A stretch of 20,456 bases of DNA from a virus, in IMG/VR virus record IMGVR_UViG_3300034104_004659, positions 1 through 20,456 of that record. One strand, given 5' to 3'. The notes beneath the pieces were generated by a model that saw only the letters and a list, made by a program, of their open reading frames with translations, made no database searches and was not told the origin of the DNA. Shown one piece after another: positions 13,501-18,348 of the stretch. Every line of letters starts with the position of its first letter. Positions within the stretch are counted from its first letter, which is position 1. The position numbers and the translations under genes are program-made.

Positions 13501-14444
13501 AACGCCGTACCCGTATAAAAAGCAGGATTGGCAACATCCATTATCTCTTTGTACTTGGGATTCAATACACTAAAGCCCATTTGATCGGGCCGAGTGCCAA
13601 GGGCCCCGGCTACCGCTGCGTATGTCTTAGGATCGGGTAATGTGTTGACATCCCGCATCGCAGCAAGTCTCCTTGCTGCCTCGCCTTGCTTGCGAATGTT
13701 AGGATTGCCAAAAGATGGCTTTGTTAGATCTTCACCAACTTCGCCACCATCTTTCATCATCACAGGCGTAACGCTTAAATCAAGCGAAGCTAATTTATTG
13801 ACAGGCTTGTAGTTAGCAAAAAACTCTTCTGTTTCCGTGCTCTTGTTCTCGTTATATACCCGATCATCCTCTTCGTCCTGCGCATCAGCCAAAGCTGCTA
13901 AAGCAAAAGCAGCCTGATAGCTGGCGGGCATGGACTTGACATCCATCTTTGCCATGACTGTTGCTTTGGCAGGAGTTGCCTGATCGGCTTGGGCCATTGG
14001 GGGCAGGGACGGCGGCAGAGGCTCACGGTCTTTTTTGGCCATTGTTTCACGTGGAACATCCTTGCCAAGAAATCCCTTGACACGCTCCACATAAGTGCGG
14101 GTTTCCGCCGGCAACTTCTTTGGGTCAGCACCGGCAGCAATCCATTTGTCCGTGGATCCCGGTCCCCAGTTATACGCAATCAAAGCCTTCTCTGTATCAC
14201 CATACTTTTGCTTCATGGCCTGCAAGTAATCCACACCCACACGCGCAATCTCATCAGGGGACTTATCTTTAGCAGGAGCTACACCAAAACCCGGATCCGT
14301 AATAGTCTTGGGCATGACCTGCATCTCACCAAGGGCACCCTTGGGACTGGTGGTCAGAGTTTTACCGTCTGCTGCGTACCGCTTACCACGGCTCTCCGCT
14401 TGCTTAACAGCAGCAACTATCTCTTCAAACGTCTGTTGGGCCAT
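10527..14444 (-). CDS. Large multidomain protein: lytic transglycosylase, HEXXH metallopeptidase-like region, GGY-type C-terminal domain
   Basis: This 1305-residue protein combines several modules. Residues 1-130 are a lytic transglycosylase: E17 in AESRG is the likely catalytic Glu, followed by GALGEMQVMP (36-45) and AYNWGPG (90-96). Residues about 300-630 hold H492-E493-x-x-H496 (LLHEGQHAIQ) and E581 in PGEVQAD, the spacing of a zincin-like domain seen in large polyvalent proteins. A long helical region follows, containing YIRRPAGGVFP. Residues about 1165-1270 (NSIGGYAEAG, VRLFSLYDKNG, ITQMNGNG) resemble a degenerate HCVGGY/YSLRD domain of phage polyvalent proteins. DGG motifs occur at D232, D643 and D1290. 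It is probably a virion protein that cuts the cell wall during DNA entry. It lies between terminase and portal genes. Confidence 0.8.
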   Translation of the reverse strand: MAQQTFEEIVAAVKQAESRGKRYAADGKTLTTSPKGALGEMQVMPKTITDPGFGVAPAKDKSPDEIARVGVDYLQAMKQKYGDTEKALIAYNWGPGSTDKWIAAGADPKKLPAETRTYVERVKGFLGKDVPRETMAKKDREPLPPSLPPMAQADQATPAKATVMAKMDVKSMPASYQAAFALAALADAQDEEDDRVYNENKSTETEEFFANYKPVNKLASLDLSVTPVMMKDGGEVGEDLTKPSFGNPNIRKQGEAARRLAAMRDVNTLPDPKTYAAVAGALGTRPDQMGFSVLNPKYKEIMDVANPAFYTGTALQIAPVAQGPGMGRMVGAAERALEPAVRRTLEGGGKASEMLQALAAPPSQMFVRARPEAAARHADLQAKGLSPEEIRAQNLTLVDNRGNLIEEISDAPAVLQQKTASVPRNFYDMLAHPELKSIYPGYDMPDVRIGTTRRKNAPLASASFGEREGIQGTVRDLPGDDARNTVRGTLLHEGQHAIQSIEGFTEGANPSAFVAYIKAKRGLYHEDPTVNENVIREMERAYPNLPEVTDRIGQDLKAKYGKVFPSDKRVGEALYRHMPGEVQADLARIRGNLTPEELKATPLEASMQQLGINPANILEMNKMGSRPDRQIGDLEYDVYGYADGGEVEQERLTPQQIERIAAQETAEREAASNAAFIAQKSGIGRKAGPVSQALQSGQGQIEFLKGMTNVPQNILGAPVDLATMAMRPFGYDVEKPFMGSEYLKEQSRAAGLGFTPSTDPTLAGFYGAGDITSNLVNPAGATRAGVKAGEKTGEAAKMLAKDFQQYNQELAVPGASYIRRPAGGVFPTAKSVEDEPVSSLDTAIKGYIGTLDLIRAPAENKEAAKQFIDTKLRDYFKTKAGSVSDPLREALISGRIKLPKDSPLEEQFPQALINASRAGDVTAMKEIEKRFDRMMNVSNFRVKQAGAGVDDRVVAESFKQTILQQMKANPSVIPDEFLLRLAKKDTSKLSKQEQAAEVAGIRQKLADNPTLFNTVIEPKMTRLIDDQLVENVSPSSVAQYADLYPALANAPKRQEGIMALQADVPITDLTYMGIPDAFGMQRYEFAQEIMKMDPKDLAQMSVPEFYAKAIPSFAKAEVFKEKVRTVDKLASAGKPVPAELGQFGTKEFLPTDSSGMTWREITNPQASLIQAKFLGNSIGGYAEAGTYGPMDNGINALKNGEVRLFSLYDKNGHAVNNVEFVTPKVANKLPHKANTITQMNGNGVRTGNVVPEDYAEQMLDLVNALNPKDIPFSIKQLFQDKGLMPTQRADGGMIERQPNDNRRYL

Positions 14445-14490: not shown

Positions 14491-15960
14491 TCAATAATAC
14501 TCAACCGGTGTTGTATCAGGCTCGTCTTCCGTATCGTCATCCGTGTCCAACGCAATAAAGTTACCAGCACGAAATCTCGTCCAAGCCATCACCGCAGTAT
14601 CCACTTGGTCGTCATTGTTCCCATTAGGAAAAGCCGCGCATTCCTCTACAAGGTCCTCGGCCCACTCCTTACCTTCAGGGTACCAGATCATGCCGGACTC
14701 TAAGAGCGGAGCAACGGCATTGGCGCGGCTGACCTTATCTTGACCGGACCTTCGACCGCCGGGCGAGAACATCGTGACAGGAATGCCCATTTTACGCAGT
14801 TCCTGTTGCAGCGGAGTACCAGTAGCTTTTGCCTCAATCAAAACATTGTCCGGCTTCCAATACATGTATTCATCTTTAGCCATGCGCTTTAGCTCAGGGA
14901 AATCCCAACGGCCCTTGCGCACGTTAAGCAGCATCAGATTGGCACCCGAGTCAGCATCAGGATAGAACACGCCCCACGTCGAGATGACAGAGAAGTCAGC
15001 AGTCTCTTTCTTCGAGTACGCCGTATCGTATACCTGAATCAGATACTCACACTCCGGTGGATCATCGTACTTCCACTTGCGCCACCAGTTACGCTTCAGA
15101 ATAGCACCCTCATCATTCGTTGGCTGCTGCTGCCACTGGGCGTTCCACTTCTTCAAGCCAATGGAGACTTTGACCTTTTCTAATTCATCAAGGCTCCAGT
15201 AGTCGGGCCACAGTGGTTTCCCGGACGGCAGGATGGCAGGGAACTCCAAGATCTCCCACTGGTCAGACTTCAAATAGCCCTGCTGTTTCAAGAGGCGGCC
15301 AGAAAGATCGTCTGTTTTCCAACGCGTATTAATCACAATGATTGCACCACCCGGTTGCAAACGCTGACGAGGACCGGACGTGTACCACTCCCACGTGTTC
15401 TCCATCGCAGTTTCAGACACAGCATCCTGCTCGTCCAAAATATCATCTAGCACGACAACATTACCACCACGGCCCGTCATCGCACCGCCCTTACCAATGA
15501 AGAACGCTTCACCGCCTTGGGCCGTGTTCCACCTGCCCGCCGCTTTACTGTCTACGGACAGGGCCATCTTAGGGAACAGTTCCTTGTACTTCTCGTCATC
15601 GACAAGGTTACGGATCATCCGGCCAAAACGCTGCGCTAATTCAGCAGTGTGGGAGCCGACAATGAGTTTGGTGTCAGGGTTGCGGCCCATCAGATATGCT
15701 GGGAACAGATAGCTACCTAGCTGGGACTTGCCGTGACGGGGAGGCATCGCGATCATCAGGCGTTTGCACTCGCCGGTTATTACACGATCAAGAGCTTTGG
15801 CGATTCGTTTGTGGTGTTCCCCAACAAGCATCTCGGGCCAGACGTACTGGCAGAAAGACAGGAAGTCAGTGGTTGCACGCTCCTGTGCTTCAAGAAGTTT
15901 TAAGCGTAGCTCAAGGCGAAGCTGTTCATCTTGTACGTCATTGGGTTTTGTAGAGTGCAT
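14491..15960 (-). CDS. terL: Terminase large subunit
   Basis: This 489-residue protein carries all expected motor and nuclease elements. The Walker A is MPPRHGKSQ (72-80), the Walker B with catalytic acid is VVVLDD (168-173), and the coupling motif is NTRW (211-214). The nuclease acids are D312 (YDTAYS), E377 (IEAKATG) and D451/D454 (NDDQVDTA). It cuts concatemers and drives DNA into the prohead through the portal. No small terminase subunit is recognisable in the window. The start at ATG 15960 has a weak ribosome binding site. A sigma70-like promoter at 15985-16013 lies just upstream, so this gene may open the late transcript. Confidence 0.97.
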   Translation of the reverse strand: MHSTKPNDVQDEQLRLELRLKLLEAQERATTDFLSFCQYVWPEMLVGEHHKRIAKALDRVITGECKRLMIAMPPRHGKSQLGSYLFPAYLMGRNPDTKLIVGSHTAELAQRFGRMIRNLVDDEKYKELFPKMALSVDSKAAGRWNTAQGGEAFFIGKGGAMTGRGGNVVVLDDILDEQDAVSETAMENTWEWYTSGPRQRLQPGGAIIVINTRWKTDDLSGRLLKQQGYLKSDQWEILEFPAILPSGKPLWPDYWSLDELEKVKVSIGLKKWNAQWQQQPTNDEGAILKRNWWRKWKYDDPPECEYLIQVYDTAYSKKETADFSVISTWGVFYPDADSGANLMLLNVRKGRWDFPELKRMAKDEYMYWKPDNVLIEAKATGTPLQQELRKMGIPVTMFSPGGRRSGQDKVSRANAVAPLLESGMIWYPEGKEWAEDLVEECAAFPNGNNDDQVDTAVMAWTRFRAGNFIALDTDDDTEDEPDTTPVEYY

Positions 15961-16061
15961 AGGCCACGTTTTGAAATTTGCATAAATATAACCCCTGATT
16001 GCATTTAAAACAACAAGGGGGGTCTTTTGGGGAGGCCAAGTTTAAAAAGGTTTGAAATTTG
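15961..16061 (-). repeat. Imperfect duplication of the terminase leader
   Basis: The 11-mer TTTGAAATTTG occurs at 15970-15980 and 16051-16061. Each copy is preceded on the plus strand by AGGCCA plus a GTTT (AGGCCACGTTT at 15961, AGGCCAAGTTT at 16033), the second with an extra AAAAAGG-type insert. The first copy directly abuts the terminase start codon. The duplication may be a relic or may place two equal sites for a regulator. Confidence 0.5.
15985..16013 (-). promoter_or_regulatory. Candidate sigma70-like promoter for the terminase/head operon
   Basis: On the minus strand TTGTTT (16013-16008) and TATATT (15990-15985) are separated by exactly 17 bases. The terminase ATG is 24 bases after the -10 box. 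It lies downstream of a terminator (16315-16341), so a new start for the late genes is needed near here. It lacks the TATAATTCA form of the right-hand promoters. Confidence 0.5.
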
Positions 16062-16160
16062 GCAGAAACAGGGCGAAGGTTTAGCTTGCGCTTGACGGGC
16101 TGTTTATGGCCCTCCCCCCTCTAAAGGATGTAACCCTATACGTAGACAACAGAGGTACAC

Positions 16161-16187
16161 GCGGGCCCACCCACCCCCGCCACCACC
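16161..16187 (-). repeat. 27-bp G-rich repeat element, copy 1 (G-quadruplex-like on minus strand)
   Basis: Identical over 27 bases to 18230-18256 in the same orientation; similarity continues into an A-rich tract (AGGGAAAAAAT) to about 16212. On the minus strand it has runs GG, GG, GG, GGGGG, GGG, GGG separated by single bases, which could fold into a two-tier or bulged three-tier G-quadruplex. It sits between the palindrome cluster and the terminase promoter region, outside any gene. Confidence 0.85.
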
Positions 16188-16225
16188 TATGAGGGAAAAA
16201 ATAAGAAAAAAAGAGTAAGGGTAAA

Positions 16226-16247
16226 CACCGATGGCATGCCATCGGTG
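16226..16247. repeat. Perfect 22-bp palindrome
   Basis: The 22 bases read the same on both strands, with centre GCATGC and arms opening CACCGATGG. It is the leftmost of a chain of inverted repeats. On the minus strand it is followed by TTTACCC and then a T-rich tract, so it could also work as a weak terminator or as an operator. Confidence 0.85.
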
Positions 16248-16259
16248 CCTGTGCTATGC

Positions 16260-16282
16260 ATACTGGGCCACAGGCCCAGTAT
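16260..16282. repeat. Inverted repeat, 10-bp arms
   Basis: ATACTGGGCC (16260-16269) pairs with GGCCCAGTAT (16273-16282) around ACA. Its right arm shares 4 bases with the next repeat. The segment GCCTGTG (16247-16253) can instead pair with CACAGGC (16269-16275), so alternative folds exclude each other. Confidence 0.85.
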
Positions 16283-16305
16283 TACTATACTCTGTATAGT
16301 AATAC
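16279..16305. repeat. Inverted repeat, 12-bp arms
   Basis: GTATTACTATAC (16279-16290) pairs perfectly with GTATAGTAATAC (16294-16305) across the loop TCT. The AT-rich stem differs from the GC-rich neighbours. It overlaps the arm of the repeat at 16260-16282, so only one of the two can form fully. Confidence 0.85.
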
Positions 16306-16314
16306 ACCGGCTGA

Positions 16315-16341
16315 CAAAAAAGGCAGCCGAGTCGGCTGCCT
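16315..16341 (-). terminator. Rho-independent terminator closing the right-hand gene region
   Basis: On the minus strand AGGCAGCCGA (16341-16332) pairs with TCGGCTGCCT (16330-16321) and is followed by TTTTTGTC. It lies 46 bases after the stop of the 103-residue gene and should prevent early transcripts from reading into terminase. The CGGCTG arm can alternatively pair with a second CAGCCG just downstream (16313-16308 on the minus strand), giving an alternative fold. Confidence 0.85.
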
Positions 16342-16352
16342 GTTTGTGATCG

Positions 16353-16378
16353 CTAGGTTGTATGTACATACAACCTAG
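16353..16378. repeat. Perfect 26-bp palindrome
   Basis: A 26-base perfect palindrome with arms CTAGGTTGTATG and centre TA. It begins 8 bases after the stop codon of the 103-residue gene (minus direction) and precedes the terminator. Its half ATACAACCTAG resembles the leader of the gene at 17019-17513 (ATACAACCTTAG), which suggests a common origin. A dimeric protein site or a strong hairpin are both possible. Confidence 0.9.
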
Positions 16379-16386
16379 ACCAGCGC

Positions 16387-16698
16387 TTACTGGTTCACGT
16401 GTAGGCCGATCAGGTCACCGGCCTTGGCCCTTTCTTCTTCGTCCTTCTTGGCCTGATAAACTTCGCGGGCCGTGTTCGCTCTGGTCTTTGCTTCTTCTTT
16501 GCTGACCAGATCCAACTGGTCTATGCTGACCTTTGCACCTTCGTTCGGAAAGTAAAGGCTATCGCCTTGGCCATACATCCACTCATAGTCCACTCTGGTT
16601 AGAGTGATCAGGAAACCGGCCAGAGCTTGAATGTCCTTGTTGGACATTTCAGTTGGTAACACGTAACGGTTGCTATCAATTGTAATGACTTTAGTCAT
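16387..16698 (-). CDS. Hypothetical protein (103 aa)
   Basis: The product starts MTKVITIDSNRYVLPTEMSN. It has a helical part (KDIQALAGFLITLTRVDYEW), a beta turn (GDSLYFPNEGAKVSID) and a charged C-terminal helix (KEEAKTRANTAREVYQAKKD). I do not recognise the family. It is the last gene of the right-hand region and has its own promoter-hairpin-leader cassette (16699-16765), so it is probably transcribed alone as well as by read-through. A leader AGAAAGAAGAGAG lies before the ATG. A terminator and palindromes follow it. Confidence 0.7.
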   Translation of the reverse strand: MTKVITIDSNRYVLPTEMSNKDIQALAGFLITLTRVDYEWMYGQGDSLYFPNEGAKVSIDQLDLVSKEEAKTRANTAREVYQAKKDEEERAKAGDLIGLHVNQ

Positions 16699-16728: not shown

Positions 16729-16752
16729 TCACTGGACCGGCTAGTCCAGTGA
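16729..16752 (-). promoter_or_regulatory. Hairpin/operator-like inverted repeat at the predicted mRNA start of the 103-aa gene
   Basis: Arms TCACTGGAC (16729-16737) and GTCCAGTGA (16744-16752) flank six bases. The element begins 4 bases after the -10 box, so it would lie at the very 5' end of the mRNA or overlap the start site as an operator. The same CACTGGAC/GTCCAGTG arms recur at 16978-17001. Confidence 0.7.
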
Positions 16753-16977: not shown

Positions 16978-17001
16978 GCACTGGACCGGCTGGTCCAGTG
17001 C
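16978..17001 (-). promoter_or_regulatory. Hairpin/operator-like inverted repeat upstream of the 62-aa gene
   Basis: GCACTGGACC (16978-16987) pairs with GGTCCAGTGC (16992-17001) around GGCT. It begins 4 bases after the -10 box, the same place as in the 103-aa gene, and uses nearly the same arms. The two cassettes look like copies. Confidence 0.7.
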
Positions 17002-17018: not shown

Positions 17019-17513
17019 TTAGCGTGATACTTCAACAGTAAATGTTAAACAACGTGCCGCATCTGTCACCTTGTCGTCTAGGTTGTTATCCATCCACTGC
17101 TCAATTGCATCGTCCACGTTGTAATCGGTAACGTCAAAGTTATTTGACATCCAGTTACTGATCTGATTATCGATGTCGTCGTTGGCCAAGATGTCCATCA
17201 TCTTGTCGCGCAGGTTGTTATCCATCCAGTCGTCAATGGATGCATTGATTTCCACTTGGGTATTAATCTGCAAAACTGCAATGCGTTTGTCAATGATGGC
17301 AAACAATGCTTCTTCTACGGGGCTCGGGCCTTGGGACTGGGTCACTGCGCTTTCAATGGTGTTCAACAAAACACCGAATGCGGTTCTCACTGCTACCTGA
17401 TCCGTAGCGCTCAAAGTATTGATCATGACTTCTGAATAATCCAGTGCGGACTGAATGTCCATGCCACGTGAACCAAACAGATTATTGCGGAAGGGTGTTA
17501 CTGGGTTTGTCAT
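17019..17513 (-). CDS. Acidic hypothetical protein with three WM(D/S)NN repeats (164 aa)
   Basis: The N-terminal half (residues 15-80) is helical (DIQSALDYSEVMINTLSATD). The C-terminal half has three related units: SIDDWMDNNLRDKM (W96), QISNWMSNNFDVTD (W121) and AIEQWMDNNLDDKV (W140). The first and third are also near-identical at DNA level (17212-17228 and 17080-17096 share 17 bases), so the repeat seems partly recent. The protein is strongly acidic, with far more Asp/Glu than Lys/Arg. I do not recognise a family. An acidic, repetitive early phage protein could be a DNA mimic or an inhibitor, but this is only a suggestion. It has its own promoter and palindrome. Confidence 0.7.
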   Translation of the reverse strand: MTNPVTPFRNNLFGSRGMDIQSALDYSEVMINTLSATDQVAVRTAFGVLLNTIESAVTQSQGPSPVEEALFAIIDKRIAVLQINTQVEINASIDDWMDNNLRDKMMDILANDDIDNQISNWMSNNFDVTDYNVDDAIEQWMDNNLDDKVTDAARCLTFTVEVSR

Positions 17514-17540: not shown

Positions 17541-17560
17541 ATCTAATCGGCCGATTAGAT
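17541..17560 (-). promoter_or_regulatory. Perfect 20-bp palindrome at the predicted mRNA start of the 164-aa gene
   Basis: Arms ATCTAATCGG and CCGATTAGAT meet without a spacer. It begins 6 bases after the -10 box, the same architecture as the two cassettes to the left, but its sequence is different, so structure rather than sequence is conserved. Confidence 0.7.
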
Positions 17561-18229: not shown

Positions 18230-18256
18230 GCGGGCCCACCCACCCCCGCCACCACC
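18230..18256 (-). repeat. 27-bp G-rich repeat element, copy 2 (G-quadruplex-like on minus strand)
   Basis: Identical over 27 bases to 16161-16187, same orientation, with the same A-rich neighbour on the right (AAGGGAAAAAAT). It lies between a terminator (18299-18328) and the promoter of the 119-aa gene, so both copies mark the gap between a finished and a new transcription unit. Confidence 0.85.
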
Positions 18257-18298
18257 ATTCAAGGGAAAAAATCAAAGAAAACAAAACCGGCTGCAGAG

Positions 18299-18328
18299 AA
18301 AAAACCCGCGCGCCTAACGGCGCGCGGG
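18299..18328 (-). terminator. Strong GC-rich rho-independent terminator
   Basis: On the minus strand CCCGCGCGCC (18328-18319) pairs perfectly with GGCGCGCGGG (18314-18305) over a 4-base loop and is followed by TTTTTT. It is the second of two terminators after the DUF932 gene. Confidence 0.85.
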
Positions 18329-18348
18329 CCATGGGCCACGGCCCATGG
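18329..18348. repeat. Inverted repeat, 9-bp arms
   Basis: CCATGGGCC (18329-18337) and GGCCCATGG (18340-18348) flank AC. It abuts the terminator stem at 18328 and begins the GC-rich repeat block. Confidence 0.8.

Follow-up and report, generated by a model that had tools for sequence, protein, structure and literature searches.

Genomic setting of the hairpin chain

The window, the whole stretch of DNA analysed here, is a 20,456-base record from an uncultured, aquatic phage whose genes lie on the minus strand. They include terL, encoding the terminase large subunit (14491-15960, minus strand, 489 aa), together with genes for a large SLT-domain protein, the portal, a GroES-like protein and the major capsid protein. 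By terL, the nearest named phage is DSL-LC04 (63% identity), followed by Pelagibacter phage HTVC027P (53%). A small minus-strand gene of 103 aa without a family match (16387-16698) lies immediately upstream of a chain of hairpins. Along the minus strand, the order is this small gene, the hairpin chain, a conserved non-coding block and terL, which agrees with an earlier note on this DNA that had placed the chain between early-type genes and the terminase. The conserved block ends just upstream of terL in a promoter-like TTGTTT-17-TATATT (15985-16013, minus strand), a putative sigma-70-like promoter recognized by eye and absent from the consensus-scan list. A GGGAGGGCCA element (16107-16116, minus strand) is found in most relatives' pre-terL gaps, even in those that lack the G-rich motif described below.

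Elsewhere in the window, an exact parS consensus, TGTTTCACGTGGAACA, is present at 14043-14058, inside the SLT-domain gene. Of 70 relatives, roughly half carry perfect copies some 1.9-2.0 kb past the start of terL, and some have further copies at other places. In total, 50 sites were recovered, none of them mismatched though one mismatch was allowed, and none were expected in shuffles. Five long relatives yielded no ParB_N domain. The presence of parS without ParB_N suggests that the phage may use, or interfere with, the ParB of its host.

Architecture of the five hairpins

Five inverted repeats had been reported within 16226-16378, and all five were found there, with perfect arms. Following the minus strand, on which all are described, hairpin A is a 26-bp perfect palindrome, CTAGGTTGTATGTACATACAACCTAG (16353-16378, 13+13, no spacer), located 8 nt past the stop codon of gene 16387-16698. 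Within the close clade its core, TGTATGTACATACA, does not vary, while its outer pairs covary. Hairpin B (16315-16341) has the makeup of an intrinsic terminator, with a GC-rich 10-bp stem, AGGCAGCCGA/TCGGCTGCCT (16321-16341, 10+10), a short loop and a TTTTTT tract directly after it on the transcribed strand. Hairpin C (16279-16305) has 12+12 arms and a 3-nt AGA loop, and hairpin D (16260-16282) has 10+10 arms and a 3-nt TGT loop. Hairpin E, a 22-bp perfect palindrome, CACCGATGGCATGCCATCGGTG (16226-16247, 11+11, no spacer), is found in one of the clade's alleles; many other relatives have a T-tailed hairpin in its place, as the last one ahead of the G-rich motif.

The earlier claim that only one stem resembles a terminator is borne out, as B alone carries a T-tract. 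In the window, no TTTT was found within 2-3 nt past A, C, D or E, and E is followed by TTT only. Equally correct for the window is the 4-base overlap between the arms of C and D (16279-16282), which is shared with close relatives and is not family-wide. The second partners that had been pointed out, GCCTGTG/CACAGGC and CGGCTG/CAGCCG, are likewise present in the window and are not a family feature.

Such a concentration of inverted repeats is far from the background expectation. A first-order Markov model of the whole window (20,456 bases) gave an expectation of 0.1 repeats with arms of at least 10 and loops of at most 8; eight were seen, five of them inside the 153 bases of the chain. Folding of the minus strand from 16130 to 16390, a check proposed with the original description, gave -115.7 kcal/mol, compared with -83.1 ± 4.9 kcal/mol in shuffles (z = -6.6).

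Conservation of the chain among relatives

To place the chain in the context of its relatives, 80 terL loci were fetched and clustered, giving 42 non-redundant 430-base gaps upstream of terL. Perfect hairpins, counted with arms of at least 8 and loops of at most 7, averaged 2.83 per gap in these relatives; Markov shuffles gave 0.08, and 430 bases of coding DNA from terL contained none. Two or more hairpins were present in 40 of the 42 gaps and none in the other two, so that the same gap in related contigs, for which a search had been suggested, does hold hairpins in most cases. Among the distinct hairpins in the gaps, 121 of 139 are perfect. In distant relatives the gap sequences are wholly different and the palindromes unrelated. 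Most relatives thus have a comparable chain in which the sequence, one arm at a time, has been replaced; the chain is a real, widespread feature of one phage group.

The distribution along longer genomes and the occurrence of T-tracts are less uniform. In two long genomes (G001 and G004), arms of at least 9 concentrate in the 2-2.5 kb or so upstream of terL; this is less clear in two others (G002 and G003). The core of stem B, GGCAGC, and a T-tract are kept in all 25 aligned relatives, while a T-tailed perfect stem is absent from the gap in 20 of the 42 relatives. A near-DNA search of the gap among named phages gave no match. The pre-terL gap of DSL-LC04 holds no such chain, with one terminator and few perfect hairpins, and the region before terL in HTVC027P likewise has none, showing an AT-rich repeat only; the chain is therefore not needed across the wider group.

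In one relative (L045), AATCAACCACTTA lies upstream of terL, and an inverted copy that matches it is some 80 bases away. Words like ATCAACNACTTA, similar to this element, recur in L065, L066, L070 and L079.

Covariation and alternative pairings

Covariation was analysed in an alignment of 25 distinct close relatives running from hairpin A to the G-rich motif. Both-sided changes were present in 14 of the 47 pairs of the five helices, and the covariation score was 0.144, versus 0.047 in shuffled alignments and at most 0.034 with slid partners. The arms thus do change with compensation, the behavior that the earlier note had asked to be tested. In helix A, the one helix assessed for compensatory change without intermediates, four pairs are doubly changed with no one-sided standard-pair intermediates, and just two cells are unpaired. 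Helix E is paired in 63.8% of cells, that is, in part of the set only, as there are two main alleles in the clade.

The alternative pairings were examined sequence by sequence in the same 25 relatives with a free search. Here the results do not support the proposal of a structured non-coding RNA, riboswitch-like, that alternates between mutually exclusive folds. The strong fold and the covarying helices are in line with it, and both the C/D overlap and the alternative partners do occur in the window sequence. However, conservation of both pairings among relatives, as expected of a switch, was not seen. The 7-nt GCCTGTG/CACAGGC pairing is found in 2 of 25 sequences (the window and L177 only), the CGGCTG/CAGCCG alternative is in most cases 5 nt long, with a sequence that differs among relatives, and the commoner allele does not keep the C/D overlap. 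Loops freely change or flip, and no Rfam covariance model matched the window at its gathering score. Since neither the alternative partners nor the overlap is kept, switching is unsupported, and we regard this idea as largely refuted and very improbable.

The types of base pairs bear on whether the constraint acts on RNA or on DNA. About 1.5% of pairs are G-U, and these lie mainly at stem ends; such rarity is unusual for a purely RNA-level constraint. Among single internal mismatches, G-U outnumbers A-C (22 vs 9) in counts that have coding background mixed in, an excess that weakly favors coding-strand RNA. As a decisive RNA test, this strand asymmetry was set aside, the excess being weak and stricter passes giving too few mismatches.

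Loop inversions and probable template switching

The most informative result of the analysis came from the loops. We compared homologous hairpin pairs across all fetched loci, requiring that the inner 9-base arms be identical, that the loops be equally long and that no fewer than 9 of 12 bases match in one of the flanks. Among pairs with differing loops, one loop was the exact reverse complement of the other in 7 of 14 cases for 2-nt loops, 7 of 7 for 3-nt loops, 3 of 20 for 4-nt loops and 0 of 17 for longer loops, making 17 inversions with distinct arms. Loops flip inside the chain itself, in hairpin C (AGA vs TCT in relatives such as L019) and in hairpin D (TGT vs ACA in L013 and L207). In most of the inversions, both flanks agree at 11-12 of 12 bases, so these are not hairpins read off the other strand. 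A 3-nt reverse-complement loop would arise by chance in about 1 in 63 pairs, and a chance origin of the 3-nt inversions is very unlikely. Hairpin arms are far shorter than reads, so assembly error is also an unlikely source.

The same signature, a loop replaced by its exact reverse complement with the arms unchanged, is left by template-switch mutations in RNA hairpins (Monttinen and Loytynoja 2022, PMC8794818). We infer template switching as the cause of both the loop inversions and the perfect arms, and the sequences suggest that it probably acts on these hairpins. Template switching alone can yield perfect arms and covariation. Since it can make compensatory changes, covariation becomes weaker evidence for a functional RNA and need not reflect RNA selection alone here.

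Elements neighboring the chain

Hairpins are also present at the other end of the small genes. In three small genes upstream of the chain, a TATAAT is followed about 5 bases on by a perfect hairpin and then by a ribosome-binding site. These hairpins lie on the minus strand at 16729-16752 (gene 16387-16698), 16978-17001 (the next small gene) and 17541-17560 (gene 17019-17513). Among 507 distinct hairpins in upstream regions of the relatives, 79 (about 16%, versus a background of 1.7%) have a -10-like hexamer within 14 bases upstream, and 68 of those 79 also have a ribosome-binding-site pattern downstream. These elements, widespread in relatives, are likely 5'-end hairpins of the mRNAs of small genes, and the phage seems to use hairpins at both transcript ends of such genes. 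Terminal hairpins stabilise mRNA in bacteria. Hairpin D, which follows a TATAGT, was considered as a further 5'-end hairpin and rejected: no gene or ribosome-binding site comes after it, and the other allele has no -10.

On the terL side of the chain, a 27-base G-rich motif, GGTGGTGGCGGGGGTGGGTGGGCCCGC (16161-16187, minus strand), is preceded by a T-rich tract and TTCCCT and is near-invariant in relatives. It occurs in 1-3 copies in the fetched pieces of relatives, usually with a hairpin before it and, in some, directly before a ribosome-binding site. The motif is a candidate promoter or activator site, or a candidate G-quadruplex-forming element. A second copy (18230-18256, minus strand) follows a second module (18305-18348, minus strand), composed of a hairpin (18329-18348) and a terminator with a T-tract (18305-18328).

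Discussion

We propose, with slightly more confidence than doubt, that the chain is a terminator-plus-hairpin 3' boundary of the last small early-type unit, which would insulate the late control region and be rewritten by template switching. In this model, minus-strand transcripts from the small-gene island would first reach hairpin A and next B, the intrinsic terminator. The remaining three, C, D and E, may serve as back-up structures, giving weak or fail-safe termination or acting as barriers to 3' exonucleases, and would thereby shield the conserved G-rich motif and the promoter block before terL. During replication, template switching in the inverted repeats would copy arm onto arm and flip the loop; the hairpins would be rewritten quickly because their arms are re-copied, with selection keeping hairpins present. 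The model is favored by the concentration of perfect hairpins in the pre-terL gap, by the 10-bp GC-rich stem and T6 of B, by the T-tailed last hairpin in many other relatives, and by the repetition of the order hairpin, terminator, T-rich tract and G-rich motif at 18230-18348. The covariation, the loop inversions and, weakly, the excess of G-U over A-C mismatches also favor it, while the rarity of G-U pairs and the missing chain in DSL-LC04 and HTVC027P speak against it. Termination and insulation in vivo, as well as the role of the stems that lack a T-tract, are what we infer from these sequence features. The proposed role appears incomplete: with about half of the relatives (20 of 42) lacking a clear T-tailed stem, intrinsic termination cannot be universal.

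Other explanations of the chain were weighed against this one. The hairpins other than B could be mainly mutational by-products, of little selected function, with template switching making and perfecting inverted repeats in unconstrained non-coding DNA. The loop inversions, the nearly universal perfection of the arms, the rapid turnover of sequence and the inconsistent T-tract are in line with this. However, at least two hairpins occur in nearly every non-redundant gap, the clustering upstream of terL in G001 and G004 is not genome-wide, and hairpins persist through full sequence turnover, which suggests selection. We see the by-product explanation as unlikely. Also unlikely, in our estimation, is a set of DNA-level sites beside the early/late boundary, either palindromes bound by a dimeric protein or cruciform or hairpin signals for replication or packaging. 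The lack of a spacer in A and E, the invariant core of A within the clade, the rarity of G-U pairs and the conserved G-rich motif adjoining the chain are consistent with such sites. On the other hand, the arms of C, D and E vary among relatives, a misfit with the site of one protein, and palindromes in this gap of more distant relatives are unrelated. Palindrome A was also considered as a special operator, which it may be; its core is no more invariant than those of B or D. A related possibility, which we rate as improbable, is that the chain is a DNA-level element of this lineage, forming extruded or single-stranded hairpins in replication or packaging, with arms re-copied and loops flipped by template switching, so that structure is inherited and sequence is not.

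With the proposed 3' boundary, the chain would also show where early transcription probably gives way to late transcription in a group of uncultured phages. The loop inversions have a broader bearing. Covariation is usually held to be the strongest sequence evidence for a functional RNA; where near-perfect stems covary and exact loop inversions are frequent, part of the covariation may stem from DNA copying. This calls for caution in RNA discovery in viral metagenomes. The many closely related contigs also offer a natural system for measuring template switching in phages.

Comparison with known systems

Among known systems, intrinsic (Rho-independent) terminators, including the tandem or fail-safe arrangements at phage operon ends, resemble the chain in the GC-rich stem and T-tract of B and in its placement, past the final gene of one unit and ahead of a new control region. 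They differ in that most stems of the chain have no T-tract, are unusually perfect and occur in chains of 2-5.

Inverted repeats in phage intergenic regions, some just upstream of gene starts, are known from the extended start-associated sequences (ESAS) of Cluster K mycobacteriophages (PMC3203893) and from the 17-bp palindromic repeats of Cluster O phages, whose central three bases are TTT or AAA (PMC4351075). Both have one consensus over many sites, whereas the hairpins of the chain differ from one another in sequence, and the chain follows a gene on its 3' side. The nearby TATAAT-hairpin-ribosome-binding-site elements resemble ESAS in position only.

Template-switch hairpins (PMC8794818) resemble the chain in having perfect stems, compensatory changes and loops that are exactly inverted between unchanged arms. 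That study, in which the word "phage" does not occur, concerns RNA genes, mainly rRNA, whereas the hairpins described here are intergenic, belong to phages and show loop inversions commonly.
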